39,161 nt of DNA, taken from NCBI GenBank assembly GCA_013153145.1, contig JAADEY010000014.1:1-39161 (forward strand), read 5' to 3'. Below, in pieces: positions 7,341 to 36,112 of the stretch (position 1 is the stretch's first letter; each line of letters opens with the position of its first letter). This stretch comes from Thermoproteota archaeon. GTDB taxonomy: Archaea; Thermoproteota; Thermoprotei_A; Sulfolobales; Pyrodictiaceae. Both the position numbers and the translations under genes were made by a program. A model generated the notes under the pieces. It worked only from the letters and a program-made list of their open reading frames with translations. It was not told the DNA's origin and made no database searches.

Positions 7341-7353
7341 GGATGTTCACCCC

Positions 7354-8187
7354 CTAGATTGCACCCTTCTGAACCCTTAGATCCCACCACTCGTGGAGCT
7401 TGCCGTACCAGTAGCCGAAGATGAAGTGCCAGTACTTCGTGAAGGGCAGTAGCGCCAGTAGCGTTGAGGCCCCCAGTACGTGTAGGCCTAGCAGCGTGTC
7501 GTATACCGCCACGTTGGTGCCGGCGGCTGTTGTCGGGAAGTGCCTTGCTGCTAGGTAGCCGGTGAAGAGTATCTCCAGCAGCAGTGCGTAGACCAGTATG
7601 TCTGTTATCCTTGCATTCCTCAGCTTCTTCACGCACCTCTCGTATATCTTCGTGCCGACCTTGAATGATGCACCGACTATGGCTAGTATTGCCAGCACGT
7701 CACCGTTCAGTATTACTGAGAGCGGGCCCCAGAAGTTATTGACGAACGTGAACCTCATCGCAGTGACTGGCTTCAGGGGTGATGTTATGGTCAGCGTCGC
7801 CGAGGTCACTGATAATGGTAGTGCGAAGGGCCATAGTATCCTATATGGTGGTATCAAGTAGGCGAAGAACGCCATGTGCTGTGCTAGTAGGAAGATTATT
7901 GGTATGACGCCGAGTAGGTGCAGGAATATTAGTCCAAATACGAAGTCCCACTTCTTGTGCTTGGCGCTGAATATTATCGGGTCAAGGAACGTCTTTATCA
8001 GCCCCTTGAAGGAGGCGCCGCCACCCCTATACCTAGGCTCAGCCTTCACTGGGCGCCGCCACAGCGCCACCATTCTCAGGAAGCGGTAGGCGCAGCCGAA
8101 CACGAAGACTGTGAACGCCGCTGGGAAGTAGTAGTATATTGCGAAGCTAAAGAGATCGGTGGGCGCGCCACCCAGCACGGCCATCAT
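7354..8187 (-). CDS. isp1: Isp1-like cytochrome b subunit (NarI/DsrM type) of the HynSL hydrogenase
   Basis: 277 residues with about five or six membrane helices. Histidines suited to bind heme b lie within or at the ends of helices: H90 and H104 (FLHLLG, AQHMAFF), H216 (ARHFP), H236 (GLHVLGA) and H254 (PFTKYWHF). The PFTKYWHF segment matches the NarI/DsrM 'P-x-x-K-x-x-H' helix end. Isp1 anchors the periplasm-facing hydrogenase and conducts electrons across the membrane to Isp2. It lies between hynL (41-nt gap) and isp2 (13-nt gap) in one transcription unit. The start is ATG 8187; a second ATG directly follows it. The order hynS-hynL-isp1-isp2 differs from the bacterial order I recall, in which the isp genes lie between hynS and hynL. 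Confidence 0.85.
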   Translation of the reverse strand: MMAVLGGAPTDLFSFAIYYYFPAAFTVFVFGCAYRFLRMVALWRRPVKAEPRYRGGGASFKGLIKTFLDPIIFSAKHKKWDFVFGLIFLHLLGVIPIIFLLAQHMAFFAYLIPPYRILWPFALPLSVTSATLTITSPLKPVTAMRFTFVNNFWGPLSVILNGDVLAILAIVGASFKVGTKIYERCVKKLRNARITDILVYALLLEILFTGYLAARHFPTTAAGTNVAVYDTLLGLHVLGASTLLALLPFTKYWHFIFGYWYGKLHEWWDLRVQKGAI

Positions 8188-8228
8188 TCACCACCTCTCC
8201 ATCCCATAACCTTTATGGGGGTTGAGGG

Positions 8229-10238
8229 CTAGAAAGAGTAGCCTACGGGCGCCAGTATCCTCTTAATCCTCTTCACCACGTGGCCGCGGCCTATCTGTAT
8301 GTGTGCTGCGCATGCGAGGCATGGGTCGAAGGATCTTACAGCCCTGGCTAGGTCTAGGCCTGTCCACATGTCGGGGCTTGTCTCCTCGGTCACCACCGTC
8401 TTTATCACCGACATCTCATACGGCGATACACACTCGCCTACCTTGCCTGGCTCGCTCGCATCATAGCCCTCGGTACAGATCTTGTCTCCCCTCGGCGACA
8501 CGTTGGGCGTCGTCGGGGCGTGCACCTGGTAGTTGACTAGCTTCTCGTTCTCCTGCACCAGCCAGTGTGCCACCATGCCGCGCGGCGCCTCTATGAAGCC
8601 GCAGCCCAGCGTCTTCTTGCCGAGCCCCCTGCCGCGCCAGTCCCTGGAGGTCTCTATCGGCTGGCCTGCCTGCCTAGCCTTCTTGTAAAGTATCATGGCC
8701 TTTACTAGGTTGTACCATGCAGCTACAGCGTCTATTGCTAGGTTTATCGCCCTCGCATATACCCTCGTTATCGTGGTGCTGAACGGCGGTAGCTCGAACT
8801 CCATCTCCACCTCCTTCCACGTGCCTGGCGGCAGGTCGGCCATCACTACAGTTGTGGCGCTCCTGGGCAGCCATATCTTTATCTTGCCGCCGCCTGCCTC
8901 GAGGCCAGCGCCTGCTATGTTTGGTATCTTGCCGCCGATGTATGCCAGTGCATACATCCTGGCGTATGGGCCTACCTCGTATGGCGATATCTCGTAGACG
9001 CCCGGCCACACCTTCCTTACATGGGTGACCCATGTGTACTTGCCGTTCCAGTCTATCTTCTGTGGTGCAGGTATCGTCATCATGTTCCACGGGTGATACG
9101 CTACGTCGTACTTGCCGTAGTGTATCGGCGTGCCGTTGGGGTCTTTGTCGGCTAGTATTGGCTGGACTCCCTTCCAGTCCTTGAAGAACGTGTGCATTGG
9201 ATGCTCTATCTCGCTGACGTTTATGTCGCTATACTTCTGCGAGACGACCTTACCCTTGTACACCATCGCTATCGGTATTAGCCTCTCCTTCGCTGCGCGA
9301 TCCATGCAGGCGTAGAACTCCTCGGCCGACTTGTAGTCTCCGCACTCCGCGTAGCTGCCCTCGGGCTCGTCGAACAGCCCTGCAGTGACTAGTATGCTGT
9401 TGTAGTATGTCAGCCCGTTGTACAGGTAGGAGTCCTTAGGCACCTTGCCCCAGGCCGGCCTCGGGAACTCGTACATCCTGCCGTCGGGCAGCCCTACTGC
9501 GTAGGTGTAGAACCTCCATAGGTCGTGCCAGACCGCTGCCACGAACTTGACCCATGCCGTGAGGTGTACTAGGCGGCCAAGGTACGCAGTGAAGAGGTAC
9601 TCTGCGTTTGTCAGGTCGGTGGCTATGCCTCCGGGTATCAGTGTGGCCGGGTGCGAGTGCCTGCCGTAGATGAGTACTCCGGCCTCCCTGGCTATACGCT
9701 GGTACTTGACCGTCAGCCTCCATATCTTGCCCGTTATCGGGTTTAGATCCCTCATTATGTCTGCCGCTGTCTTGTAGCCGTGTATGTCTACGAAGACTAG
9801 GTCGTCGTACTTCTTCGCCTCCTCCCACACGCTTGGAGTCATCCTACTGACTAGCATCTCGCTGTAGTCGGGGCCCTCAAGCATGTTGAGTATCAGCGGG
9901 TGGTCGTAGATGTGGTCTGTCATGGCGAAGGCCATGTTCCTCAGCGCTATGCCGAGAGGCGTCGGGCTAACGCCGTAGGCCATGTCATTAGCGATTGTTG
10001 ACGCGTTGGCGTGGGAGGCTCCGCAGACACCACAGATACGCGACGTTATGTGTATAGCATCCTCCGGAGGCCTACCCCTAAGGAATACCTCGAAGCCGCT
10101 AAACATGGTCACGAATGTCCTTGCACTCGCAGGATCCACGGCGCCCGTGCTTACATCAACCACTGCCCTTATGCCGAGGTGACCCTCTATCCTGGTTACG
10201 GGGTCTATGAAGAGGAGCTTCTTCATGCCCATAACCAT
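8229..10238 (-). CDS. hynL: [NiFe] hydrogenase large subunit, group 1 (membrane-bound uptake type)
   Basis: 669 residues. The N-terminus has the family motif IDPVTRIEGHLGI. The L1 Ni-binding motif is R67-I-C69-G-V-C72-x3-H76. The L2 motif near the C-terminus is D638-P-C640-x2-C643-x2-H646, so all four Ni-ligand cysteines are present. A tail of 23 residues after H646 (ending GYSF) should be removed by a maturation protease once nickel is inserted; a candidate protease gene lies at 12151-12708. The protein would be exported together with HynS, since it has no signal of its own. It starts at ATG 10238, 27 nt after the hynS stop, preceded by GGGGGTGG. At 669 residues it is longer than the usual 550-600, with the extra sequence in the middle. 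Confidence 0.95.
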   Translation of the reverse strand: MVMGMKKLLFIDPVTRIEGHLGIRAVVDVSTGAVDPASARTFVTMFSGFEVFLRGRPPEDAIHITSRICGVCGASHANASTIANDMAYGVSPTPLGIALRNMAFAMTDHIYDHPLILNMLEGPDYSEMLVSRMTPSVWEEAKKYDDLVFVDIHGYKTAADIMRDLNPITGKIWRLTVKYQRIAREAGVLIYGRHSHPATLIPGGIATDLTNAEYLFTAYLGRLVHLTAWVKFVAAVWHDLWRFYTYAVGLPDGRMYEFPRPAWGKVPKDSYLYNGLTYYNSILVTAGLFDEPEGSYAECGDYKSAEEFYACMDRAAKERLIPIAMVYKGKVVSQKYSDINVSEIEHPMHTFFKDWKGVQPILADKDPNGTPIHYGKYDVAYHPWNMMTIPAPQKIDWNGKYTWVTHVRKVWPGVYEISPYEVGPYARMYALAYIGGKIPNIAGAGLEAGGGKIKIWLPRSATTVVMADLPPGTWKEVEMEFELPPFSTTITRVYARAINLAIDAVAAWYNLVKAMILYKKARQAGQPIETSRDWRGRGLGKKTLGCGFIEAPRGMVAHWLVQENEKLVNYQVHAPTTPNVSPRGDKICTEGYDASEPGKVGECVSPYEMSVIKTVVTEETSPDMWTGLDLARAVRSFDPCLACAAHIQIGRGHVVKRIKRILAPVGYSF

Positions 10239-10265
10239 CCACCCCCACTACCTCACGAGCCTGGA

Positions 10266-11666
10266 CTAGGAGCCTCCCCCACTCTCCTTCGCCTTCTCGG
10301 CGTGCTTCTCATGGAGCTTGGAGAGCCCATAGGCGACCACCGCGCCGCCTATCACGGCAGCCGCGCTAAGACCTCCCATCGACTCAACGCCCAGAGGCTG
10401 CGGCGCTGGCAGAGGCTTCCAGAAGGGCTCGAACGCGTCCGTGAAGCCCGGCATTGTACAGCCCGTGCATACGCCGCCGGTCCTCGTCGGGCCGCCTATA
10501 CCGTTAACCCAGCCCAGCTTGTTCCATGGACAGTTCGATGCCGGTCCCTTGCAGCCGACGGCAAAGAGGCAGCGATAGTCCGGATCGCCGGGGTGCTTTC
10601 TTAGGTCGCCGGCGGCGTAGCTGGCAGCCCTCGGGCACTGCTCGTGCACGGTTGCACCGTAGATGAAGAGTGGTCTCCAGTACTTGTCCAGCTTCGGCAG
10701 CGGCAGCAGGCCCTTCAGCGCCAGCACTACGCTCACCAGCGTCCTTAGTATACCCTCGCCGTTCGCCGGGCAGCCTGGCACCGCTATCGCCGGCTTACAC
10801 TCGCCCAGCGTACACTTGCCATAGCTGTAGACGAACTTCCTGAAAGGCTCAGCTGTGTCAAGGAGGTCTACTAGGCCGGGCCTCTTCCTCACGGGGTCGG
10901 GGAAGAAGCCTACCGCTCCAGTGGCGTTCTCCAGCATGCACTTGAAGCCGGGCGGCGTCTGCAGAACCTTGTCTGCACGCATGCCGCCGTAGCATGCACA
11001 GTTCCCTACGGCGACCACGGCGAGTGCGTTCTTGAGCAGGCGGCGTAGCCACTCGGTGCATGTGACTAGCTCGCCGTTCTCCTCGCCTATGTAGCAGTAG
11101 AGAGCCTCACTCCTACCCATGCAGGTTACGTCGCCGCCGGGCTTGGTGCTGCAGACGGGGAAGGAGCCCTCAAGCACTAGTGCATAGCCCTTGCTGAAGT
11201 CCACTACCGTATGCTCCTTCGGTATGACGCCAGCCTCGACTAGCTCGAGATAGTACTGACCGAAGGGCGACTTCTTCGCCAGCTCTACGAGGTTCAGCTT
11301 CTCGCCCTTTATGGCCGCCCTCAGTATGTCTAGCGCATACTCGCCGAACTCCGGCATTATGGTCTCGTGGAAGAGCAGCTTAACCGTGCCAGGGCCTGCA
11401 GCCGACGTGAAGCCCGCAAGTACATCAATGAGGTCGGGGTCGACCGCCTGTATTATCGCTGTTGTCTCGCCGGCACAGTCCTGCGACTCGAACCATATTA
11501 TTGGTAGCTCGAAGGGCGACGCCGACTTCGCGAATGCGCCGACGACCCTGGTCCAGTCGACGGCGGCGAGCAGTGCTGTGGCGGATACACCAAGCTTTAG
11601 GAAGTCACGGCGAGTGAGCTTCAGATCCCGCAAGCTGTCAAGCAAACCGTGGAACCCCCTTTCCAC
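10266..11666 (-). CDS. hynS: [NiFe] hydrogenase small subunit with Tat signal; proximal-cluster Cys replaced by Glu
   Basis: 466 residues. A Tat signal T18-R-R-D-F-L-K24 is followed by a hydrophobic stretch, so the folded enzyme should be exported. The first proximal-cluster motif, normally C-x-x-C, reads D63-C64-A-G-E67, so the second Cys is Glu (codon GAG). The other proximal ligands are present: C223 in AVGNCACYGG and C299 in VPGCP. The distal cluster has His and Cys in GATVHEQCPR and two Cys in CLFAVGCKGP. The medial cluster Cys lie in NCPW and GVCTGC. A C-terminal membrane helix (SAAAVIGGAVVAYGL) and a basic end anchor it. Several further Cys (172, 182, 191, 203, 225) are unusual. The start is GTG 11666; nearby ATGs at 11673 and 11679 are out of frame. 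First gene of the operon. Confidence 0.95.
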   Translation of the reverse strand: MERGFHGLLDSLRDLKLTRRDFLKLGVSATALLAAVDWTRVVGAFAKSASPFELPIIWFESQDCAGETTAIIQAVDPDLIDVLAGFTSAAGPGTVKLLFHETIMPEFGEYALDILRAAIKGEKLNLVELAKKSPFGQYYLELVEAGVIPKEHTVVDFSKGYALVLEGSFPVCSTKPGGDVTCMGRSEALYCYIGEENGELVTCTEWLRRLLKNALAVVAVGNCACYGGMRADKVLQTPPGFKCMLENATGAVGFFPDPVRKRPGLVDLLDTAEPFRKFVYSYGKCTLGECKPAIAVPGCPANGEGILRTLVSVVLALKGLLPLPKLDKYWRPLFIYGATVHEQCPRAASYAAGDLRKHPGDPDYRCLFAVGCKGPASNCPWNKLGWVNGIGGPTRTGGVCTGCTMPGFTDAFEPFWKPLPAPQPLGVESMGGLSAAAVIGGAVVAYGLSKLHEKHAEKAKESGGGS

Positions 11667-13344: not shown

Positions 13345-13636
13345 GGCTGTGGAGTAGCTGCACGTACCTCACCGTCTCCCGGACACCCTCCTCCGTCGCT
13401 TCGAGGAACGTGCGGGGGCCGTGGAGCGTAAACCCCTTCCTAATCCTCAGGAGACCTTCCCTCTCAAGCCTCTCCACGTGATGCCAGAGCGTCCCCGGCT
13501 TCACGCCGAGCGCTCTTGCAGCGCTGCTGAACTCTATCCTACGCCTATTTACTAGGAGCAGCATTAACGCTAACCTGACCGGAGTGCTGAGGACGTGGCC
13601 GCGGAGTGCACGCAGCGCATCATCTATGCCCCCCAT
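13286..13636 (-). CDS. Winged-helix transcriptional regulator
   Basis: 116 residues. The N-terminal two thirds form a winged helix: LSTPVRLALMLLLVNRRRIEFSSAARAL (helices 1-2), GVKPGTLWHHVERLEREGLL (recognition helix) and RIRKGFTLHGPRTFLEATEEG (wing). This pattern, beginning with a 'TPVRLALM' helix and a 'GTLWHHVERLE' recognition helix, is that of the archaeal HTH_34/ArsR-like regulators. It probably regulates the neighbouring membrane protein and ABC genes. The start ATG 13636 lies 17 nt inside the preceding membrane-protein gene, so the two are coupled. No metal-binding Cys is visible. The tail is Gly/Ser-rich. Confidence 0.8.
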   Translation of the reverse strand: MGGIDDALRALRGHVLSTPVRLALMLLLVNRRRIEFSSAARALGVKPGTLWHHVERLEREGLLRIRKGFTLHGPRTFLEATEEGVRETVRYVQLLHSLISAGGGMQGSSSEGRGSR

Positions 13637-14252
13637 CTCTTCCAGCCTCTTCAGCTGCGACGGTTACGAGGGCCTCGTGGAGGTAGAGTGTCGCAGCCAG
13701 GCTGTACGACACCATCAACGCCGCCAGGGCGACGTACCACGCCTCTGTGACCGAAGTCTTTGACAGGGTTGCGGGGAGCACGCACCAGAGTACTGCGTCG
13801 GCGAGGCCGCTGTAGATCGCCGACTTCTTGTCATGCTTGAGGCTGATCAGTACTATGGATAGGAGCCCGATGCCTATCGAGATTAGGAGGCTTGCAGCGC
13901 CCAGTGACTGTCTCGACGCCAAGCCGGCCATGCAGAGCATTGAGGCGATGATGGGGCCGAGTATGAACGCCAGCACCCACGCCGCTATATGCCATCCCAC
14001 GCGCTCCAACGATAATGCCTCTATACGCTTCACTATACTCCTCTCAGCATATACTATACCGGCTATCGAAACAATCCAGAACACTATGAGCGCCTGCCCC
14101 ACAATGCTTGGGGGGAGAAGGACTCCAAGTATGGCTGCCGCGCCTGCCGGGATCAGCCATACTATGTAAGAGTAGGCGTAGAACACGTACCGCGAGGACT
14201 CCAACGCCCTAAGCGTTCTTGCGAGGAGCTCCCTTAGACTCTCACTACCCAT
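13620..14252 (-). CDS. Uncharacterised integral membrane protein coupled to the regulator
   Basis: 210 residues with about six hydrophobic helices after a short basic N-terminus (ESLRELLARTLRALESSRY). There are no recognised transporter motifs. It overlaps the winged-helix gene by 17 nt. Gene pairs of a winged-helix regulator and a small membrane protein are common in archaea, where the membrane protein may sense a signal. A minus-strand T-rich TATA-like element near 14287-14297 predicts a start near 14266, so the pair probably has its own promoter, separate from the ABC genes upstream. Confidence 0.7.
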   Translation of the reverse strand: MGSESLRELLARTLRALESSRYVFYAYSYIVWLIPAGAAAILGVLLPPSIVGQALIVFWIVSIAGIVYAERSIVKRIEALSLERVGWHIAAWVLAFILGPIIASMLCMAGLASRQSLGAASLLISIGIGLLSIVLISLKHDKKSAIYSGLADAVLWCVLPATLSKTSVTEAWYVALAALMVSYSLAATLYLHEALVTVAAEEAGRDGGHR

Positions 14253-14344
14253 GCCAGCCTACACACCCCCATGCTCTCCTCAAGGGGCTTAAAAACGAGG
14301 TGAATCCCCGGGCTTGGGGCTCTACCACCTGATATGCCGCGGTG

Positions 14345-15163
14345 CTAGAGTAGCCTTATCTCCTCGGCCCCGACACCTCTCTGCAGCCTTAACAGTACTA
14401 TCCCTATGCAGCTCAGCAGGCCCGTCCACGCGATCACCGAGGCCCAGAGTAGTGCTGGGTCTAGCTTGACACCGCTCATCGGTTCTACTATTGCGGCTGT
14501 TGTTGGCGGCATGCCGGTGTAGTAGCTGAAGAGTAGTGCTGTTGCAGCATTTATCGGTGATGCTAGGATGAAGAGTTTGCCGAGGCTCGTGTTCAGCTGG
14601 AGCATTGTGAGGGCCATTCCGAGTATCAGGGGGAGGTATGCAACGTACTCTGCTGATCTTGCCGCCCTGGCTAGTATCGCTGCACATGTCGTTACAACGT
14701 CTATTGAGAAGTAGAGTGCTCCTAACCCCGCTACCGCGGCGGCGAGGCCGAGGGGGTTCTTGGGTGCTACTGCTCCCAGCTTGCTGCTGTATAGTGGTAG
14801 TAGCATTGCTGCCAGCACTGCGGCTGTTATGAGGCATACTATTATGAAGCCCGTGAACATGTAGGCGTACAGCTTCCTGCTGGTAAGCATGCTGTATTTC
14901 GATAGGTATCTTACCGGTATCGAGGAGTAGAAGAGCAGCCTGCTCAGCCCGACTGCCGCTGCTGCGATGCCTATACCGACTATGACAACGTACCAGCCGG
15001 CCGTGTATGCTAGCCTCGCCTCCAGCGGTGCGGCTGCAAGCCTATCTGCGCTCACGTAGCCTAGGGCCATCCAGATAGTCATGAAGGCTACTGACCAGAA
15101 CCAGTAGGGCTTACTCGTCATCCATGACTTCATATAGTACTTCATGTAGACGAGCGTGCTCAT
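14345..15163 (-). CDS. ABC transporter permease subunit
   Basis: 272 residues, mostly hydrophobic, with six or seven helices. The start ATG overlaps the stop of the ATPase gene by 4 nt, so the two subunits are made together. No substrate-binding protein gene is adjacent, which favours an exporter of the ABC-2-like type rather than an importer. The assignment rests on the coupling to the ATPase and the helix pattern; no permease motif (such as an EAA loop) is evident. Confidence 0.75.
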   Translation of the reverse strand: MSTLVYMKYYMKSWMTSKPYWFWSVAFMTIWMALGYVSADRLAAAPLEARLAYTAGWYVVIVGIGIAAAAVGLSRLLFYSSIPVRYLSKYSMLTSRKLYAYMFTGFIIVCLITAAVLAAMLLPLYSSKLGAVAPKNPLGLAAAVAGLGALYFSIDVVTTCAAILARAARSAEYVAYLPLILGMALTMLQLNTSLGKLFILASPINAATALLFSYYTGMPPTTAAIVEPMSGVKLDPALLWASVIAWTGLLSCIGIVLLRLQRGVGAEEIRLL

Positions 15164-15954
15164 AGCGCGATCACCTCGTATAGCCTATCTAGACTATCTA
15201 TGTTCGAAATGGGCATTCCAGCCCCCTGGACTAGGCTGACATAGCTCCCGTCAACCTCTAGGACTAGCTCCGCCTTGCTAGATCTGCCCTTAACCAGGCC
15301 TAGCCTCGGCAGTTTTGACGCCTCTATGGGGCCGTAGAGCTTCCCCGAGACCATTATATATGCCTTCCACCCCTCCAGCCTCTCCAGCAGCCACGTAGCA
15401 TGAGTATTGATTATGAGACGGCCGCTGTTTGATAGTAGCAGCTTCATGAGCCTGGCACGGCTGCGCGGATCCAGATTCTCGAAGGGCTCATCTAGGAGTA
15501 CGTACTTACTCTTTATGCTGAGGGCAAGCAGGTTTAGCGCCATTCTCCGCTCTCCTGCAGACATCTTATGCAGTCTGGCCGCGAGGATCCTGCCGAAGCC
15601 AAGCTCATCCATCATATTGACGAACCATTCGTAGTCGCCGTTGCAGATCGCGGTGTATAGTTTCGCTATATCCCTCAGGGGGAGGCTCAGCAGCGTGTAT
15701 ACCTCCCTGAGGTTCGTTGAGACTAGGCCGACTGCGCCTACGAGGCTATCTATGTCCCTGCCATCTATCGTCACTCTCCCGCTTGACACTGGCGTCAAGC
15801 CTAGGATGACTCGGAAGAGTGTTGTCTTGCCGGCGCCGTTGGGCCCGAGTATTATGCAGGGTGGTTTGAGGGATGCCGTGATGCCTCGCAGTACTGGCCG
15901 CCCCTTCACGTATCCTGCAACGACGCCCTCGAAGACGATCATTGAGCCCTGCAC
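15160..15954 (-). CDS. ABC transporter ATP-binding subunit
   Basis: 264 residues. Walker A is GPNGAGKTT (residues 37-45), the signature is M131-SAGER (canonical LSGGQ, here SAGER at 132-136), Walker B is YVLLDEP (151-157), and the switch His is in IINTHATWLL (near 184). The Q-loop region (GLVSTNLREVYTLLSLPL) lacks the usual Gln and has Asn instead. The start GTG 15954 is four codons ahead of an ATG that begins MIVFEG, the usual family start. A TATA-like CTTTAAAC on the minus strand near 16020 predicts a start near 15997, so this unit is likely separate from the CARF genes upstream. Confidence 0.88.
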   Translation of the reverse strand: MQGSMIVFEGVVAGYVKGRPVLRGITASLKPPCIILGPNGAGKTTLFRVILGLTPVSSGRVTIDGRDIDSLVGAVGLVSTNLREVYTLLSLPLRDIAKLYTAICNGDYEWFVNMMDELGFGRILAARLHKMSAGERRMALNLLALSIKSKYVLLDEPFENLDPRSRARLMKLLLSNSGRLIINTHATWLLERLEGWKAYIMVSGKLYGPIEASKLPRLGLVKGRSSKAELVLEVDGSYVSLVQGAGMPISNIDSLDRLYEVIAL

Positions 15955-16026: not shown

Positions 16027-17496
16027 TTAAAGAGGGGTAGGCGTTATTGAGGCGTGAAGCCCTATGCCTGTACCTCTATATACCTCCTTGCTTGTCTTAG
16101 AGAGGAGCCTTATGAGTGCTACCAGCTGGTAGACTGCATAGGCTGCACTAGCAGCAAGCCTCCTCCTGTCATCCGTGTCCATCTCGGTCAATCTCCGCAT
16201 CCTGGCGTAGAGCGGCTTGGCTATCCTTCCTGCAGGGTGCTCGCACCAGAGCCTGAAGGCCCCAGTGTCGCCCGTTGCTATGTACCTTGACTCGAGCAGG
16301 ATGGGGTCTATGGATGGTATTGCTGTATCGGCTGGCGGGGAGGGTGATGGTATCAGTGGTGCCTTACATGTTCTCCGCAGCTCCTCCAGCGCGTATAGCG
16401 CTGCTACGTCTTCTAGGCTGCTGGCCGGGTTTCTCGGGTAATTCTTTAACGCTTCTGCGTATCTGCGGTATAGCTCTGCCTGCACCGCGTACGGTATCAC
16501 GGGTCTCAGCCTCCTAAGGGAGTCGGTGCAATCGTTGTGTATGCCCCAGTAGACCAGGTTCGTGTCTATGATTACCTCGTCCTCTATATTCTCCATGTCC
16601 TTCTCCATGCCGTCCCTGTCGTAGAAGACTATCCTGTAAAGCCCCGAGAGCCTCGCAAGGCCTGTGAGTAGCCCGCCTAGCCTTGTGCCCCTACTCGCCT
16701 CCACTGTGTCGAGGATCTTCCGTGCAGCCTTCACCCACTCCTCCTCTGAGCACCAGTTATTGACTATAGCCTCGATGTTTACTTGCTCGCCTCCCTGGCC
16801 ATGCAGGCTGGCCCTGAACTCTATCCTTAGACCACCACAGTCTGTCTCCACCTCTGCCCCGGTGTAGGTTCTCCTGACGACTGGCTTCACGGCCTGCGAC
16901 GCGTTAGTATTCTTAACCTGCTCGGCCACCATGCGCCTCAGCGCTGCTTTGCTGTGTATTCTGTCCATCATGGCCGCCGCGACCTTATTGATTACCTTCC
17001 TGGCCTCCTCTCGGTCACTTACAGGGGTTGGGGCATGGTTGCAGTGCAGTATGTAGAGGGGCTCGAAGACGCGTGGCACAAGAGGGAAGGGGAGGCCGGT
17101 CCACGGCCCCCAGTAGAAGTCTATGTGGAGCACGCATGCATCCTCCCGGTAGCCCGCCATGGAGACTGCCGCCGCGAGCCTCCTTGACCCCGGCGTTGGG
17201 ACAACGTATACCTGGACCGTGCCTTCTCTGGAGAGTTTCTCTATAAGCCTCCTTATCTCGCGCTCGGCATCGCCTGGCTCCTCTGGGACGAGCCTTGGCT
17301 CTATCCTTAGTGGCGTGTCATGGAATATCCTGGTGAGGATTCTTACCGTTTGTGGTCCTGCGCGTGTCGTGTAGAGTACTTCGAACCTCTTTGCGCCGGT
17401 CTCCTCGTAGATCCTTGTAATGCTTGAGACCGCTGCTTCTAGGGCTCCCGGCCCTATTGTTACCGGTATGACTACCGCCTTCTCCTCCATGGTCAC
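16027..17496 (-). CDS. CARF-like protein with C-terminal PIN-like nuclease domain
   Basis: 489 residues. The first 155 residues look like a CARF-type Rossmann domain: strand AVVIPVTIG with a glycine-rich turn, and later VYVVPTPGSRRLAAAVSMAGYREDACVLHIDFYWGPWTGLPFPLVPR. That later segment parallels the NPTGG...AAxMAGA...LPILP segment of the neighbouring CARF protein. A central region (about 160-300) is unassigned. The C-terminal part resembles a PIN nuclease: V308-I-I-D311-T-N313, E341 in VQAELYRR and D410 in YIATGDTGAF give the usual spaced acids. I infer a ribonuclease switched on by a cyclic oligoadenylate or similar ligand. It starts with GTG 17496, overlapping the CARF gene stop by 4 nt. 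Domain calls are by eye; the PIN call is the less certain. Confidence 0.6.
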   Translation of the reverse strand: MTMEEKAVVIPVTIGPGALEAAVSSITRIYEETGAKRFEVLYTTRAGPQTVRILTRIFHDTPLRIEPRLVPEEPGDAEREIRRLIEKLSREGTVQVYVVPTPGSRRLAAAVSMAGYREDACVLHIDFYWGPWTGLPFPLVPRVFEPLYILHCNHAPTPVSDREEARKVINKVAAAMMDRIHSKAALRRMVAEQVKNTNASQAVKPVVRRTYTGAEVETDCGGLRIEFRASLHGQGGEQVNIEAIVNNWCSEEEWVKAARKILDTVEASRGTRLGGLLTGLARLSGLYRIVFYDRDGMEKDMENIEDEVIIDTNLVYWGIHNDCTDSLRRLRPVIPYAVQAELYRRYAEALKNYPRNPASSLEDVAALYALEELRRTCKAPLIPSPSPPADTAIPSIDPILLESRYIATGDTGAFRLWCEHPAGRIAKPLYARMRRLTEMDTDDRRRLAASAAYAVYQLVALIRLLSKTSKEVYRGTGIGLHASITPTPL

Positions 17497-18311
17497 TCTG
17501 TTGCCGCCTCCATTAATGCGTCCAGGTAGCCTTTAAGGTGTATGAGGTGCTTGCAGTCGATCCTGGCCACGCCATGCTCTACTTCTACTGGGCCTGCGGC
17601 GGCTGCCGCGTGCAGCACCGATGCCATGCTTCCAACCATGTCGAGCGGTATCCTTGCTATCCCTCCTTCCCTGCACTGGCGTCTTATGATCTCCTTGAGC
17701 GTGTTTATGTAGCTCTTCATCAGCTCAGTATCCGGCTTTACTGGTAGTATTGGGAGGCTTACTGGTGTGCGCATGTACTCGTGTATGTAGTATACTGCGT
17801 GTGCGCCCGCCATGCTGGCCGCCATTATCGCGGCCGCTGTCTCTGGCTTGAAGCCCCCCGTCGGGTTTAGGTAAACTAGGTGCGTGGCCTTCAGCTTCTT
17901 TACATCGCTTGCAACTCTCTTTACGAGGTTTATTATGCCCTCCCAGAAGTTCTTGCCGAGGTTTGGTATTGTCTCCACCTCGACTACGCGCACCCCTCTA
18001 TCGGCCAGGTATCTTTGGAGGAGCTCCGCTGCCAGCCTGCCTGCAGGCGTGTCTGTCGCGTAGAGCCTAACTATGTCGACCACTGCCTCCCCCTCGAGGA
18101 AGCCCTTCATGGCGTTGAGCTCGGCTGACAGCTGGTAGGGGGATGATACGAGCGCTTGGTAGATCTCATCCCTGCACTCCTTGCTCAGCTTCACCTCCTC
18201 GCCGCGGAGCAACCTCTCTATCGCGTCCCTGCATTCCGCCCCTACCAGGCCCCTCCTCGAGGCGTTGCTGAGTATGCTGGTGCCAACCGTGACTAGGTGT
18301 GCCTCCTTCAA
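17493..18311 (-). CDS. CARF protein, APE2256 family (Crn1-like ring nuclease candidate)
   Basis: 272 residues. VTVGTSILSN (residues 7-16) is the first CARF strand with its ligand-binding turn. LYATDTPAGRLAAELLQRYL (84-102), NLGKNFWEGIINLV (117-130) and YLNPTGGFKPETAA (147-160) are hallmarks of the APE2256 CRISPR-associated CARF family. That family includes Sulfolobus ring nucleases which cleave cyclic tetra-adenylate. S12 and K155 occupy positions like the Ser and Lys implicated in that activity. The region after residue 195 is helical and could be a small winged-helix-like end. It is the first gene of a two-gene unit with the CARF-PIN gene. No cas gene or CRISPR repeat is near. It would degrade or sense the messenger that controls its partner. 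Confidence 0.85.
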   Translation of the reverse strand: MKEAHLVTVGTSILSNASRRGLVGAECRDAIERLLRGEEVKLSKECRDEIYQALVSSPYQLSAELNAMKGFLEGEAVVDIVRLYATDTPAGRLAAELLQRYLADRGVRVVEVETIPNLGKNFWEGIINLVKRVASDVKKLKATHLVYLNPTGGFKPETAAAIMAASMAGAHAVYYIHEYMRTPVSLPILPVKPDTELMKSYINTLKEIIRRQCREGGIARIPLDMVGSMASVLHAAAAAGPVEVEHGVARIDCKHLIHLKGYLDALMEAATE

Positions 18312-18340: not shown

Positions 18341-18364
18341 GCGCTACGTTTAAGCGTAGTGCGC
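18341..18364 (-). promoter_or_regulatory. Inverted repeat around the TATA element of the CARF operon
   Basis: CTACG (18344-18348) and CGTAG (18355-18359) flank TTTAAG, whose minus-strand complement CTTAAA is a TATA-like element about 40 nt ahead of the ATG at 18311. Outer bases extend the arms (GCG...T-GCGC, with one bulge). A protein binding here would block the TATA box. The predicted start site is near 18325. Confidence 0.45.
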
Positions 18365-18400: not shown

Positions 18401-19582
18401 GTGGATGGGGTGTGCTTTGTGACGTGTAGGGGCAGGCTAGTAGTGGCTGGTGTTGTCCTGGTTGGATTGTTTACGCTGCCTACATTTATGATGAGGGCTG
18501 TCCTGCCCTATGTTACTGGTAGCGCTGGTGTTCATGGAGAGTGGATGTCTAGGATACTCTATGCGGGCTTCATCATGCTTGCCGTGGCCTCGCCTCTTGC
18601 CGGCTGGGTGTGTGATCGGCTTGGCGCGTGGAGGGTTGCACTCGTATCTGCTGTCCTCCTGGCTCCACTAACCCTCATCTATCTACTTGTACATGGCTTC
18701 TGGGGTTTGCTTGTGGTTAGACTCGCTAATTCATGCATCGGAGAGATGTTGATTGCAGCCGCCAATACGATTGCCGCCCATGCCACCGTATCTGCCGGCC
18801 TTGGCTTCGGCGTTTTAAGGTTTATTGAGGGTGTCGGTATAGCTGTTGGGCCCTACCTGGGCGGCTTTCTTGCCGAGATAAGCCTGCCGCTAGCCGTCTC
18901 CGCGGCCGCGGCGTTGATGACTCCCATCGCGCTGGGGGCTCTCGTGGCCGGGAGGTGCAGCGGCGGGGGAGGGGATGGGAGGAGGGGCTTGCTGGAGTCG
19001 CTTAGGGGTTCTGCTATGGTGCTCTCAGCCCCCCGGCTGCTCGTGCTGCTTGTTGCCGCATGCGGGCAGGTTGCTGGCTTCGCCATACTCTTAAGCTACT
19101 ATACTACGCTGCTCGTCGAGGAGCTCCACTTAGGGCCCTCGATGTATGGTGTCTTTCTTGCTGCTGAGTCTATCGGGTATAGTCTTGGGAGCTTGTTCTC
19201 GGAGAAGCTCTATCCGCGGCTCGGCGTCCCCGTTGTGGCTATGTCGTCGCTTGTCCTCGCTGCAGTCTATTTCACCCTATCGTGTAGCCGTAACGTCGCC
19301 GTCGTGCTGGCCCTGGCGCCGGTGCTTGGTCTTAGTGCTGGTGAGGCCTTCAACCCCGTCTACATGGAGGCTGCCAGGAGGGCGGGGGAGTGGGGGAGGG
19401 GCGTGGTCGTCAACACGGTCGACATGATTGTGAATATCTCTATGGCTGCCGTGAGCCTCCTCCTAGACCCCCTGGTTCCGCTGATAGGTTTGAGGGGGGC
19501 CGTGGTTGTTGCGGCCTTGATAAACCTCGGTGCTGGACTCCTTGCTATCCTCTACCTGGTGAGAGCCTACCTACCGCCTTGA
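18401..19582 (+). CDS. MFS transporter
   Basis: 393 residues with about 12 hydrophobic helices. The loop after helix 2 reads GWVCDRLGAWRVAL, matching the MFS G-x-x-x-D-R-x-G-x-R motif. RLANSCIGEMLIAAANTIAA and FIEGVGIAVGPYLGGFLA resemble helices 4 and 5 of drug:H+ antiporters. The substrate is unknown. It starts at GTG 18401, though the GTGs at 18410 and 18419 are also possible; it is divergent from the CARF operon with 89 nt between. It ends 38 nt inside the convergent hydantoinase-like gene. Confidence 0.82.
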   Translation: MDGVCFVTCRGRLVVAGVVLVGLFTLPTFMMRAVLPYVTGSAGVHGEWMSRILYAGFIMLAVASPLAGWVCDRLGAWRVALVSAVLLAPLTLIYLLVHGFWGLLVVRLANSCIGEMLIAAANTIAAHATVSAGLGFGVLRFIEGVGIAVGPYLGGFLAEISLPLAVSAAAALMTPIALGALVAGRCSGGGGDGRRGLLESLRGSAMVLSAPRLLVLLVAACGQVAGFAILLSYYTTLLVEELHLGPSMYGVFLAAESIGYSLGSLFSEKLYPRLGVPVVAMSSLVLAAVYFTLSCSRNVAVVLALAPVLGLSAGEAFNPVYMEAARRAGEWGRGVVVNTVDMIVNISMAAVSLLLDPLVPLIGLRGAVVVAALINLGAGLLAILYLVRAYLPP

Positions 19583-21128
19583 CTCTAACCTTCACCGCGT
19601 TGCCTGGCAGGTAGGGCATTGCTATCTCCTCGACCTCAACTATCTCTACTGTTGATGGGTCTGCGCCCGCCTCTATCGCCTTCCTTATCGCCTCCCTCTT
19701 TGCATCCTCTAGTGCCTTTTCTCTTGGTATCTGCTCGTACGAGTATGCCTTGTCTATTGTTGCGCCTACGAGCGCTGTTGCGGCTCCTATAGCGTTCGCT
19801 GACTGGGCGTGTTCTGGTCTGATCACCTCCCTTGCTCCACGTAGCCTGCGCGGCCACATCGCTGAGCCTCCGCCAACAAGTATCACTATCTCCGGCTCCG
19901 GCCTCGTCTTTATCCTGTCTATTGCGTCTTCGAGCATCTGCACCATCTTTGCATATGCTTTTTCTACGAGCCAGGCTGGTATCAGCTTCTTCGCCCTCTC
20001 GGGGTTGCATCGTGGATCATCTATCTTCATGACGCCCTTCGCCAGGGCTATGTCCGTCGCTGTCACGGTGTTGCCGCCCCATGCAATGCCCTCCTCTACT
20101 AGCCTGTACCCCACGCTGTCTGGGCCTATCCTCACCTCCCTTGTCTCCTCGTCCCAGCGGATGATGCTGCCTCCTCCGAGACCTATTGCTAATACATCGG
20201 GGGCCCTTATGTTGGTCCTCACACCCGCTATATCCACCTCAAGGGCCTCCCTCGGGTAGCCGTTGACAAGCACACCAATGTTCGTCGTCGTGCCGCCGGT
20301 ATCGGCTACTATGGCGTTGGGGATCCCGGTGAGGACGTATGCCCCCCTTATACTATTCGATATCGGGGCTATGACCGTGAAGACGGGGTACTTGGCGACA
20401 TAGTCTTCGCTTGCCGTTGTCCCATCATTCTGCGCGAAGTACATCTTTGCGTGCGGCATGCCGAGCCTCTCCAGGGCCTCCCTGAGCGCCCTGATAGCTC
20501 TACGCATCACGGGGAGCGTCGCCGCGTTCAATATGGTTGCATTCTCCCTCTCGAGGAGCCCTATTGAGCCTATCTCGTGGCTTAGGACGACTGGTATGCC
20601 GGGGGCATACTTTGAGGCTAGCTCGCGTACCCTGAGCTCGTGCTCCGGGTTCACTATCGAGAAGACGGATGTGACTGCTATGGCGTCGACCTTCTTCCCA
20701 GCGAATGTCTTCAACGCCTTCACTGCTGCGTCCTCGTCGAGGGGTGCTATCTCCTCCCCGGTGTACTCGTGGCCGCCGCGTATCAGCACGGTTCCTGCCG
20801 ACACTTTTTCACGGAGGTCCTGTGGCCAGTCCAGCATCGGCTCTATCGCGGCTGTTGCCGGGAGCCCTATCCTTATGACCCCGACCCTGGCGAGGCCCTT
20901 CCTCTGGACTATAGCGTTGATGACATGCGTAGTCCCAAACATTACTGCGTCTACTTCCGCAGGATCCACACCGCTCTCCTTCACAACCCGCTCAAGCGAC
21001 CGCACTATGCCCGTGGTTACATCCGGGGTTGTCATCGTCTTTACTGCGTGGACTAGCTTGGCTGGCGGCTCTATGACTACTGCGTCTGTATGTGTGCTGC
21101 CTACATCAACCCCTATCCTGTACACCAT
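19545..21128 (-). CDS. Hydantoinase/5-oxoprolinase (HyuA-like) family protein
   Basis: 527 residues. It belongs to the ASKHA fold: phosphate-1 motif IGVDVGSTHTDAVVI (residues 5-19), GTTHVINAI (near 90), the strong ADTGGTTTNIGVL (near 285) and GLGGGSIIR (near 325), then ILVGGGSAMWPR. The family hydrolyses cyclic amides such as hydantoins and 5-oxoproline, with ATP in the best-known members. It is shorter than two-domain HyuA (about 680 residues), like many archaeal members. It follows the DUF917 gene by 6 nt. With the NCS1 permease close by, breakdown of an imported hydantoin- or pyrimidine-like ring is a reasonable inference. The ATG at 21128 is preceded by GGGGAGGTGAAGC. Confidence 0.88.
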   Translation of the reverse strand: MVYRIGVDVGSTHTDAVVIEPPAKLVHAVKTMTTPDVTTGIVRSLERVVKESGVDPAEVDAVMFGTTHVINAIVQRKGLARVGVIRIGLPATAAIEPMLDWPQDLREKVSAGTVLIRGGHEYTGEEIAPLDEDAAVKALKTFAGKKVDAIAVTSVFSIVNPEHELRVRELASKYAPGIPVVLSHEIGSIGLLERENATILNAATLPVMRRAIRALREALERLGMPHAKMYFAQNDGTTASEDYVAKYPVFTVIAPISNSIRGAYVLTGIPNAIVADTGGTTTNIGVLVNGYPREALEVDIAGVRTNIRAPDVLAIGLGGGSIIRWDEETREVRIGPDSVGYRLVEEGIAWGGNTVTATDIALAKGVMKIDDPRCNPERAKKLIPAWLVEKAYAKMVQMLEDAIDRIKTRPEPEIVILVGGGSAMWPRRLRGAREVIRPEHAQSANAIGAATALVGATIDKAYSYEQIPREKALEDAKREAIRKAIEAGADPSTVEIVEVEEIAMPYLPGNAVKVRVKAVGRLSPGRG

Positions 21129-21134
21129 GGTGCT

Positions 21135-22208
21135 TCACCTCCCCATGAGCTTCTCTATTGGGATGTACTCATAGTCGTATCCAAAGTACTTCGGGCCTAC
21201 GACCTTCAACCCCTCCGGCGTCCTCCACTTCTCGCTACACGGTATACCGATGACCGCCACCCGGAGACCGTACCTCAGCCTCTCGGTGGTTATCGGCCTC
21301 GCAGTCTCCTGGTCGACGACGACTATTATGTCGGGAACCATTGCTACGGGCTCGCCGTCGCGGAGGGCTATGAGGTTCTCGTTCTGGAACTTTATCACCA
21401 TCTTTGAGCCGCTGAACGAATCCATTCCATCTATTACAGCCTCCCCCCGGGCGAAGCCCCCGACATTGAACCTCTTCACGTCGACGATTTTTCCGCGGAA
21501 GAGCAGGAATCCGTTGGAGGCCTCAGTCAACGCGTCTATAGGGTTCTTACCTCTCTCCTTTGCCTCCCTTATCGCGCGCCCTATCTTTATAGCCAGGCTC
21601 ATCGTCCTCCAGACGGCCGCCCGCTTGTAGTCGGATCCCTTCATGGCATAGATTGCTATCCATGCCGTGCCGCCGAACTTTATCGTCACGACCCTGGCTA
21701 TCTTCTCCGCCCAGTAGTTGTCAATCGTATCAAGGACTATCCTGTTACCCTTCTCATCAGCCATCGACATGGGTGTCGCCTTTATCCCATAGAGGTGGAA
21801 GGTTGTCATCTGCAGCTCAGGGAACGCCCTCCCCATTCCATCGCCATCTATGACTGGTAGGCCGCGCCTAGCGGCCACAACGAGGGGGATTGTGGAGTTT
21901 ATGCCTCCAGCCTCTATGGGTGTGAGGAAGTCGGCCTCACGGTTATAGTATTCCTCGAGGGCCTTCAATGCATAGACCAGCTCTGAGCCGGAGGGAATCT
22001 TCTCTATGAGTACTGTTGGTGTACCCATCCCGGCCACGGGGACGACGAACGAGTCATCGGGTACTTCCTCGGGGTCTGCCACGCGTATTTCACGGCCTTT
22101 ATCGAGCTCTTGTAGAGCCATGAGCATCCCGATGTAGGGGTCGCCTCCCCCACCTGCACCGAGGATTGCCGCCCCCACCGCTAGGTCTAGGATGTCCTGG
22201 CGGCTCAT
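21135..22208 (-). CDS. DUF917 family protein
   Basis: 357 residues from the ATG at 22208. The N-terminus MSRQDILDLAVGAAILGAGGGGDPYIG is the family start, and PIEAGGINSTIPLVVAARRGLPVIDGDGMGRAFPELQMTTF is the central conserved block. DUF917 proteins accompany hydantoinase/oxoprolinase genes and include relatives acting on thiohydantoins; they are thought to act on cyclic amide substrates. The frame stays open upstream to a GTG at 22295 (29 more residues, overlapping the previous gene), but those residues look unlike the family, so I place the start at 22208. It is transcribed with the hydantoinase-like gene 6 nt downstream. Confidence 0.85.
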   Translation of the reverse strand: MSRQDILDLAVGAAILGAGGGGDPYIGMLMALQELDKGREIRVADPEEVPDDSFVVPVAGMGTPTVLIEKIPSGSELVYALKALEEYYNREADFLTPIEAGGINSTIPLVVAARRGLPVIDGDGMGRAFPELQMTTFHLYGIKATPMSMADEKGNRIVLDTIDNYWAEKIARVVTIKFGGTAWIAIYAMKGSDYKRAAVWRTMSLAIKIGRAIREAKERGKNPIDALTEASNGFLLFRGKIVDVKRFNVGGFARGEAVIDGMDSFSGSKMVIKFQNENLIALRDGEPVAMVPDIIVVVDQETARPITTERLRYGLRVAVIGIPCSEKWRTPEGLKVVGPKYFGYDYEYIPIEKLMGR

Positions 22209-22285
22209 CTTCCACAAGGCTGCCACCAAAACGTAGGGGTCTGGGGCTGGGGGCTGGTGGTGGGAAGCTTTGAGCATTGCCCCAA

Positions 22286-22738
22286 TTACTTCCACTCTAT
22301 GTTCATCCCCATTGATACGAGCTTCTTGAAGACCTCGTCTACCTTCTTCGGTGCCATAATGACGTACTCGCCGTTCTTGAGCTCAACTACTATGTATTTC
22401 TCCGGCGCACCGGCGACCGCTAGGAATGCCTTCGCGCCGTTCTCGAGCTTAAACCACCCCCACCGGAAGCCCGGTAGGCTCATCCCCCATACCCTCATGA
22501 CGGGCTTGAGCCCGTCGTCAAGCTTGTCGACTATCTTGACTCCCTTGACGTCCTCGACGCAGAATGTTGTTGATGATGCTACGAGTGCTTTCAGGGAGAC
22601 GCATGGTGGTTTTATCACTAGTCTGCATGTCAACATGGGGGCCAGGATCATGATGAAGACCGCTATTATTACGGCGGCTAGTATCGCGACTATGATCCAT
22701 GCTATTGGTGGTATGCTGAAGTAGTATATCTCCGTCAA
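22286..22738 (-). CDS. Membrane-anchored bacterial PH-like domain protein
   Basis: 150 residues from TTG 22738. One membrane helix (about residues 10-33) is followed by an extracytoplasmic or cytoplasmic beta-rich domain: VMRVWGMSLPGFRWGWFKLENGAKAFLAVAGAPEKYIVVELKNGEYVIMAPKKVDEVFKKL. The pattern 'G-(F/Y)-xx-G-W-F-x-L-xN-G-xKA...K-(Y/V)-x-V-(V/I)-x-L' is that of the bPH_5 domain family. The function is unknown; in some bacteria such proteins are stress or envelope factors. It is the first gene of the unit with DUF917 and the hydantoinase-like gene, and is divergent from the NCS1 permease. Confidence 0.65.
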   Translation of the reverse strand: MTEIYYFSIPPIAWIIVAILAAVIIAVFIMILAPMLTCRLVIKPPCVSLKALVASSTTFCVEDVKGVKIVDKLDDGLKPVMRVWGMSLPGFRWGWFKLENGAKAFLAVAGAPEKYIVVELKNGEYVIMAPKKVDEVFKKLVSMGMNIEWK

Positions 22739-22812
22739 GCCGGGGAGCCACCGTGGAGGCCTACGTGTATGCTGAGCCTATTTACTGGGATCGGTATATC
22801 TTTATGAGTATG

Positions 22813-22821
22813 CTTATATAG
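22813..22821 (+). promoter_or_regulatory. TATA promoter for the NCS1 permease
   Basis: CTTATATAG predicts a start near 22844, about 14 nt ahead of the ATG at 22858 and 32 nt ahead of the ATG at 22876. Confidence 0.45.
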
Positions 22822-22857
22822 TGTCCTATACTCAGCCCACTCCCCAACAGTCCCACA

Positions 22858-24231
22858 ATGGGGAGGGCCGCCCCCATGACTGAGGATATGTCCACAAGAG
22901 AGAAGGAGAAGCACGAGAGGTTTGAAGACGAGTACGCGCTCAAACCAATACCACTCGAGCTGCGGAAATCCTGGAAGTACCATGCAGCCGTATGGGCAGG
23001 AGTGGCCTTCGTAGTAGCAGCACTCATGGGTGGCGCCACACCCCTAACGATACTGCCCTTCTGGCCAGCGCTCGCAACCATAATAATCGGCAACCTCATC
23101 CTATGGACCATCTTCACACTAACATCATACATGGGTGCTAAGACTGGGCTCAACACGTACGTGTTGGCTGAGCACGCCTTCGGCCGCTACGGTGCACGTG
23201 TCCTCATTAACCTGGTTGCCTCGGGCATCCCCAGCTTCGCGTGGTATGGTATCGAGACGTGGCTTGCTGCCGCCGCCATAGCCGTGGTGCTGGGCTGGAA
23301 TGTTGGTGGGCCTGGCCGCTTAATGGATCTCCCCACAGCAGTGTTCACTATGGCGAGCGGCATAATAATGGCTATACCGCCGATACTCGGCATAGTGTCT
23401 ATGGCGTTGATAGACTTCGTAGCCATACCGGTCATGGCGCTGCTGACCGCCTACGGCCTCTACCTCGGCATACAGCTCGGCATCGCCGGAGAGCTCTTCC
23501 GCTATGTGCCGCCCGGCTTCACGCCGGCGAAGCTTCTCCCGGACTTCATGATAGCCCTTAACGCCGTCATAGGGCTCGTGATAGTCGGTGCCACGATAGC
23601 CGCTGATACCGCCAGATGGATAAAGCCGGAGAAGCGGGGGGTGATCCTCGCCGGCCTACTGGGCTTCTTCAGCGTGGCCGTCTTCATGGAGATTGTAGGG
23701 ATGTTCTTCGCAATAGCAGCGGTAAAGGCCGGGCTGAACGCCTCGCTTGCCTGGAACATAATACTCGTGCTTAAGCAGCTGGGAGTCGCCACTGGCCCGT
23801 TATGGCCGCTGCTGGTGCTCGTCTACGTCCTACAGTTCACAACGAACATGCTGAATGCCTATAGTGGGGGCCTTGCACTAACGGCCACCGTGGGCAAGCC
23901 CAAGCTAAGGCCGTGGCTGACCCTTGCAGGCGCTATAGTCGGCTCGCTTGTCGCGGTTCTCGGCATCGTCTGGTACTGGATACCATTCCTAACAACACTC
24001 GCAAACTGGATAGCACCTATAGCAGCGGTGCTGCTCGTAGAGTTCTACCTCATATCGAAGGGCAGGCTCACCGAGAGACCCGCCATACGGCCCGAAGCAA
24101 TAATCGCCTGGTTCCTAGGCGGCCTAACCTCATACCTGCTGACGGTACATGCACCCTACTTCGTGCCGTGCCTTGCCGGCATGGCTGTAGCTGCAGCAAT
24201 ACACTACATCGCTAGGAGGCTACGCAGGTAA
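22858..24231 (+). CDS. NCS1 family nucleobase/hydantoin:cation symporter
   Basis: 457 residues. After a charged N-terminus ending in FEDEYALKPIPLELRKSWKY, about 12 helices follow. Family features include WAGVAFVVAALMGGA, the NLILWTIFTLTSYMGAKTGLNTYVLAEHAFGRYGARVL block with the NCS1 G-x-x-T-G-(L/ x)-x-x-x-x-x-x-x-x-x-FG pattern, and SFAWYGIETWLAA. It resembles cytosine/purine permeases and the hydantoin carrier Mhp1. It imports nucleobases or related rings with Na+ or H+. The divergent hydantoinase/DUF917 genes point to a hydantoin or reduced pyrimidine as substrate (inference). The start may be ATG 22858 or ATG 22876, the latter preceded by GGGGAGGG. Confidence 0.88.
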   Translation: MGRAAPMTEDMSTREKEKHERFEDEYALKPIPLELRKSWKYHAAVWAGVAFVVAALMGGATPLTILPFWPALATIIIGNLILWTIFTLTSYMGAKTGLNTYVLAEHAFGRYGARVLINLVASGIPSFAWYGIETWLAAAAIAVVLGWNVGGPGRLMDLPTAVFTMASGIIMAIPPILGIVSMALIDFVAIPVMALLTAYGLYLGIQLGIAGELFRYVPPGFTPAKLLPDFMIALNAVIGLVIVGATIAADTARWIKPEKRGVILAGLLGFFSVAVFMEIVGMFFAIAAVKAGLNASLAWNIILVLKQLGVATGPLWPLLVLVYVLQFTTNMLNAYSGGLALTATVGKPKLRPWLTLAGAIVGSLVAVLGIVWYWIPFLTTLANWIAPIAAVLLVEFYLISKGRLTERPAIRPEAIIAWFLGGLTSYLLTVHAPYFVPCLAGMAVAAAIHYIARRLRR

Positions 24232-34416: not shown

Positions 34417-34421
34417 AAAGC

Positions 34422-35840: not shown

Positions 35841-35845
35841 ACACC

Positions 35846-36112
35846 ATGCCCGTAAAACCCCCAACAATAATCATAGACTATGACCGCTGCAAGAAATGCC
35901 TAAACTGCATAAGAGCGTGCACAGCCTTCGAAGGAGTATACGAGAAAGGAGAAGACGGCTACCCCAAGGTAGTAAGACCCGAATACTGCGTAGAATGCCT
36001 CATCTGCCACCTAGTATGCCCATCAAACGCGATCACACACAAGAACTACAGGGAGACACTAGTCCTCGACCTAAGCGGCCTACCAATAGAAAGATACAAA
36101 CACATAGTCTAG
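35846..36112 (+). CDS. 2[4Fe-4S] ferredoxin
   Basis: 88 residues. Two motifs: C15-x2-C18-x2-C21-x3-C25 (RCKKCLNCIRAC) and C48-x2-C51-x2-C54-x3-C58-P (YCVECLICHLVCP). It would carry electrons to or from the adjacent hydrogenase. The start ATG 35846 is preceded by GAGGAGGTGA. The last gene of the operon that starts at 32448. The frame is open upstream through the large subunit in another register, but that part is the shadow of a real gene. Confidence 0.92.
   Translation: MPVKPPTIIIDYDRCKKCLNCIRACTAFEGVYEKGEDGYPKVVRPEYCVECLICHLVCPSNAITHKNYRETLVLDLSGLPIERYKHIV

Follow-up and report, generated by a model that had tools for sequence, protein, structure and literature searches.

Two CARF proteins encoded by overlapping genes, on a stretch of archaeal chromosome with no cas genes beside them, raise the question of which signal they answer and whether they work together. 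The window analysed here is the whole of a 39,161-base contig (C34) from a draft genome of 1.19 Mb (47 contigs, 79% complete), and both of the minus-strand ORFs described in a first-pass annotation exist at exactly the coordinates given there. The first gene, P0002 (17493..18311, minus strand), starts at TTG and encodes a 272-aa protein of the CARF7/APE2256 (Crn1-type) family, a probable cA4 ring nuclease. The second, P0001 (16027..17496, minus strand), starts at GTG and encodes a 489-aa CARF_m3--CARF_PIN protein, a probable cyclic-oligoadenylate-activated nuclease. The 4-nt overlap described between the two ORFs is GTGA (17493..17496, minus strand), which holds the TGA stop codon of P0002 and the GTG start codon of P0001, and probably couples their translation; use of an alternative in-frame ATG two codons into P0001 would still leave no gap to P0002.

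The sequence CTTAAA (18349..18354, minus strand), 38-43 nt upstream of the P0002 TTG start, is by its letters a possible archaeal TATA box. A divergent MFS transporter gene on the opposite strand starts 89 nt upstream of the pair. The transcript of the pair may run on into ABC transporter genes, because an ABC transporter ATPase gene on the same strand starts 72 nt downstream; this gene and two unassigned genes directly follow the pair on its strand (13620-15954). No cas family was matched among the proteins scanned from the 39,161-base window, and no CRISPR repeat array was seen in it, in agreement with the first-pass annotation. Elsewhere the window is ordinary chromosomal DNA, with hydrogenases, permeases, a 5S rRNA and two tRNAs. 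We rejected a mobile island as the setting of the pair: base composition is uniform along the whole window, and neither tRNA gene lies within 14 kb of the pair. This one 39 kb contig carries two separate clusters of NiFe hydrogenase genes (5934-11666 and 33448-36112), and positions 19545-24231 hold hydantoinase/oxoprolinase-like and S-Me-THD-like (thiohydantoin desulfurase-like) genes and a cytosine/purine permease, possibly a cluster for hydantoin uptake and breakdown.

We consider the pair to be, probably, an ancillary module of type III CRISPR that consists of an activated PIN nuclease and a Crn1 off-switch and is located apart from the cas genes. The CARF domain of P0001, as a dimer, would bind a cyclic oligoadenylate, most likely cA4, which Cas10 would make in this cell; the ligand-bound CARF domain would turn on the C-terminal PIN domain, and the PIN domain would cut RNA via D311, E341 and D410. 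P0002, as a Crn1-type ring nuclease, would also bind this cyclic molecule and degrade it slowly, turning the P0001 nuclease off once signalling ends, and translational coupling would keep effector and off-switch in step. An activated nuclease with a ring nuclease had been one proposal of the first-pass annotation; we judge this mechanism the most likely one, and the family calls behind it were right.

P0002 and the Crn1 family

P0002 matched Pfam PF09651 (Cas_APE2256; E=7.3e-35), TIGR02619 (2.2e-33) and PADLOC CARF7--CARF (PDLC01926; 5.3e-59), all of which agree with its earlier assignment as an APE2256/Crn1-type CARF protein, and also two structures solved for this family, PDB 3qyf and 7pq2 (E=2e-16 to 4e-15). 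The CARF domain spans residues ~1-195 and is followed by a small C-terminal domain (~196-272). All three motifs initially reported, VGTS, NLGK and NPTGGFK, are present, the first at residues 9-12 and not 10-12. Across 36 aligned sequences the conserved positions are VGT-S12, N149, T151, G153, K155, E157 and Y175; Ser12 is found in 34 of 36 CARF7 family members and Lys155 in every one (36/36), and P0002 keeps both.

In Sso2081, the solved Crn1 enzyme, Thr10 and Ser11 make phosphate contacts, and the Ser11Ala variant is impaired in cleavage (PMC10018336). The Thr-Ser of motif I (T11, S12) and the active-site Lys (K155) are present in P0002, with Ser12 corresponding to Ser11 of the phosphate-contacting site. 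At motif I, P0002 therefore appears equipped, as judged from residues, with what a ring nuclease requires. The picture is less clear for motif II: where Sso2081 has the basic pair Arg105-Lys106, P0002 reads LGKNF, at a place that is variable within the family. P0002 thus resembles Sso2081 in its CARF fold by profile, the Thr-Ser of motif I, the conserved Lys and the positions kept family-wide; it differs in being paired with a CARF-PIN effector, in lying outside a cas locus and in that its activity is predicted. CARF7 is the Crn1 family, found mostly in crenarchaeal type III loci (PMC12409355).

The CARF and PIN domains of P0001

P0001 is named by PADLOC alone, Pfam and NCBIfam profiles having returned nothing usable. 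The match to CARF_m3--CARF_PIN profile PDLC01984, a name taken from the CARF classification, covers the protein essentially end to end (residues 7-462, E=1.5e-84), and a second profile, PDLC01983, matched at 3.6e-34. P0001 shares with this family the full-length profile match, the domain order and the invariant acids, and differs in having no Cys pair and in the CARF7 gene in front. Searches of PDB sequences with P0001, its family profile and its relatives matched nothing real, and a scan of viral contigs returned no relatives, only two short peptide patterns. Neither P0001 nor P0002 is new in kind, both belonging to catalogued CARF families linked to type III CRISPR.

We modelled P0001 with AlphaFold (AF2) on 11 sequences (whole chain: pLDDT 84, pTM 0.88). 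The best Foldseek matches of the model are CARF effectors, including Thermus Csm6 and Can2, and the ring nuclease Sso2081 was also matched; alignments to Csm6 have very large rmsd and low TM, and only the CARF part draws support from them. Over the whole chain, the TM scores are modest. The best whole-chain structural match is cA4-bound SiRe_0806 of Sulfolobus islandicus (PDB 9jxx, 9jxw; TM 0.51 by target, full chain), to which the complete model aligns, as does the PIN part by itself, although the two proteins have no detectable sequence similarity; we found no paper on SiRe_0806. The N-terminal CARF domain (residues ~7-152; 17041..17478, minus strand) matched the CARF domains of Cam1 (TM 0.64-0.70), Can2 and Sso2081. 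Profile and model therefore agree with the earlier reading of this part of the protein as CARF, and the segments VPTPGSRR and LPFPLVPR on which that reading drew are present. The domain carries the family signature FYWGPWTGLPFPLVP at residues 127-141, in which F127, G130, W132, P138 and P141 are invariant or strongly conserved among relatives. The ligand-loop motif TPGSRRL (101-107) is divergent, the usual T-G-G-x-K motif being absent.

The PIN-like nuclease domain (residues ~296-489; 16030..16611, minus strand), modelled alone with a pLDDT of 69, matched the PIN proteins 3i8o, 3ix7, PAE2754 and SMG6, the PIN-like FEN1/EXO1, and SiRe_0806. In two alignments, every relative (28/28 and 35/35) has D311, E341 and D410. 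In the model, D311 is placed at a strand end, E341 in the helix that follows P335, and D410 in a TxD motif beyond strand 405-408, positions that correspond to the usual PIN layout as predicted; D390 is likely to be the fourth acid of the domain. Conservation and predicted placement agree with the triad proposed from the letters, with the exception of N313, which had been listed beside D311: relatives have N, S or T at this position, and because it is not invariant we read it as outside the catalytic core. A Cys pair (residues 337 and 389) is found in 33/35 relatives, and P0001 and its relative in G167 have Ala-Ala instead (A337, A389 in P0001). Because both positions are replaced together, the alignment suggests that a disulfide in the PIN domain was lost as a unit in these two proteins.

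The PIN domain has the VapC fold, and PAE2754 is among its matches. In VapBC operons the neutraliser gene comes first, as the probable neutraliser does in this GTGA-coupled pair. These features would suit a toxin-antitoxin-like arrangement, in which P0001 would be a PIN toxin that is on by default and P0002 would restrain it either by binding to P0001 or by removing a basal ligand. We think this improbable, however: P0001 has a CARF regulatory domain of its own, P0002 belongs to a large conserved enzyme family and is not a small DNA-binding antitoxin, and a CARF7 neighbour within 20 kb at only 1 of 50 CARF-PIN places indicates that an adjacent antitoxin is not required.

Neighbourhoods and recurrence of the pair

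Profile searches of 214 genomes of the window's order matched CARF_m3-PIN in 71 genomes, CARF7 in 58 and Cas10 in 88. The CARF-PIN matches divide into a strong class, to which P0001 belongs, and a second class that is weaker and longer (CARF_m12 or unassigned); profile comparison relates the two with 99.8% probability. Among strong CARF-PIN places, a CARF7 gene lies within 20 kb at 1/50, namely this window, and a cas10 gene at 3/50, whereas Cas10 lies within 20 kb of 16/61 CARF7 places, all three counts being lowered by contig breaks. Therefore, the CARF7 gene is often at type III loci and the CARF-PIN gene is usually alone, and the window joins both away from cas genes. At the level of whole genomes, CARF7 and strong CARF-PIN co-occur in 29/214 (odds ratio 6.8, p=6e-8), and in the same sample strong CARF-PIN is also associated with Cas10 (odds ratio 3.3, p=5e-4), both values being uncorrected for shared phylogeny. 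A conserved third partner was sought by clustering 384 neighbour genes and was rejected: no family occurs at many loci except ABC ATPases, at 7 loci. Named relatives returned by sequence include genomes of Pyrodictiaceae, Acidilobaceae (Aeropyrum) and Desulfurococcales, and in a tree the CARF-PIN genes largely follow family-level taxonomy.

Outside the order, the pairing recurs. In a phylum sample of 398 genomes, 12 genomes outside the order have a strong CARF-PIN gene, and in three of them (G288, G524 and G404) CARF7 lies beside or near it. In G288 (L126), another Thermoproteota genome, the two genes are part of a complete type III-A operon that reads, on one strand, csm2, csm3, csm4, csm5, cas10, CARF_m3-PIN, CARF7 and CARF9-HEPN. 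G524, of the same genus, has CARF-PIN followed by a CARF7 gene with a broken frame, with a cmr4 gene ~6 kb away; in G404, CARF-PIN and CARF7 are ~1.5 kb apart on the same strand. The G288 operon and the window have the same two families adjacent on one strand; in G288, however, the pair lies downstream of cas10, with PIN before CARF7 and with a Csx1/Csm6 effector in addition, whereas the pair in the window is detached and has CARF7 first. A looser case is found in the window's own family, in G159, where CARF7, a weaker-class CARF-PIN and CARF_m13 lie in a row (L113, 8007-11215), adjoining cas4-like and cas1-like genes and 12-14 kb from a Cmr-type cas10. This G159 CARF-PIN protein carries a classical DITGGTK loop. 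The survey of homologue neighbours proposed in the first-pass annotation thus finds the CARF7 pairing unusual within the order and recurrent elsewhere.

In a maximum-likelihood tree, P0001 groups with its relative in G167 (94/86), apart from the group of G288, G524 and G404 (100/99), in which the gene order is reversed relative to the window. Because of this separation and the reversed order, we conclude that the two genes came together, or their pairing was rearranged, on more than one occasion, and we regard this repetition as the strongest evidence for joint action of the two proteins. The same evidence bears on whether the genes lie together by chance, as what is left of a type III locus that was lost and is decaying, and no longer act jointly. 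No other strong CARF-PIN place in the window's order has this neighbour, and some relatives, among them G159 and G110, have CARF-PIN genes that look split or broken, both of which would suit such a remnant; but the two frames in the window are intact, with invariant active sites and a 4-nt overlap, and the pairing is found again on separate branches in differing gene order, such that we consider chance adjacency very improbable. The split genes lie over two reading frames at 9002-10568 of L049 (G159) and 9073-10743 of L068 (G110), in genomes that are otherwise near-complete, and may reflect effector decay.

A functional parallel for the ancillary module that we favour is the HEPN effector with Crn2, in which effector and off-switch are likewise tied together; the window differs in having two overlapping genes, PIN in place of HEPN and Crn1 in place of Crn2.

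Source of the signal

The window's genome encodes CRISPR adaptation genes on another contig. A family search located cas1 on contig C10 (L125; 7.4 kb), alongside what read as a cas2 gene and two cas4-like genes, in the order cas4, cas2, cas1 and second cas4-like. C10 also has a short array of ~26-base repeats, cut by the contig end, and a HerA-like ATPase gene of a type labelled 'Type III coevolved' by PADLOC. The suggestion that the pair forms a new, self-limiting, CRISPR-free module is therefore not borne out: both parts are catalogued, the pair stands in the type III-A operon of G288, and its own genome has adaptation genes and an array. No Cas10 was found in this 79% complete genome, either by profile or with a Cas10 query from a relative in the family, and no RAMP was found; their absence is not established, because C10 stops in the array and the draft lacks a fifth of the genome. 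The Cas10 profile (PF22335) is weak even for true Cas10s of the window's family, such as that of G159 (1.5e-6).

Several observations weigh against an ancillary role in type III CRISPR: no Cas10 or RAMP in the genome, only 3/50 CARF-PIN places near cas10, the divergent ligand loop and the modest TM scores. Neither the window nor the 79% complete genome places the pair beside cas10 or other type III genes, and it is relatives that are found in type III loci, in the G288 operon and, in G159, 12-14 kb from cas10. A housekeeping second-messenger system, also suggested in the first-pass annotation, is possible in a genome with no detectable Cas10 or RAMP, yet that genome is 79% complete.

Six near-complete or closed genomes (G011, G012, G013, G115, G118 and G119; 96-99% complete) carry a strong CARF_m3-PIN and have no match to Cas10 palm or RAMP profiles. 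It seems that the effector persists in these genomes without type III CRISPR, or that their Cas10s are very divergent. The pair in the window might likewise answer a signal not made by type III CRISPR, as a free-standing stress or defence circuit whose CARF domain reads another ligand, a reading that we regard as rather unlikely. The lack of detected Cas10 and RAMP in the window's genome and in these six genomes is consistent with it, as are the divergent ligand loop of P0001 and the occurrence of CARF-PIN genes with no conserved neighbour, largely tracking family-level taxonomy. There are precedents: damaged tRNAs regulate RtcR, whose CARF domain is divergent (PMC7790460), and many Csa3-bearing genomes are without Cas10 (PMC8699464). 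However, the partner P0002 is of Crn1 type with its catalytic residues, and cA4 is the ligand for which that family is known so far; the same pairing also occurs inside the G288 type III-A operon; and divergent Cas10s can escape Cas10 profiles. We similarly doubt the more specific proposal of a CARF_m3-PIN circuit, in the window with a co-translated Crn1-type off-switch, that runs without type III and is driven by another cyclic-nucleotide maker or by an RNA-damage or stress signal.

The ancillary-module reading remains the one that we prefer, and two features of the locus remain of interest: the tight coupling of effector and off-switch outside a cas locus, and the retention of CARF-PIN in genomes where type III machinery was not detected. 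If the species truly lacks Cas10, the locus asks what makes or senses the messenger where archaea have retained CARF effectors but not type III CRISPR. Because we found no paper on the activity of CARF-PIN effectors, the coupled pair offers a compact test case from a hyperthermophile lineage, in which one protein is predicted to be switched on and the other is predicted to destroy the switch.
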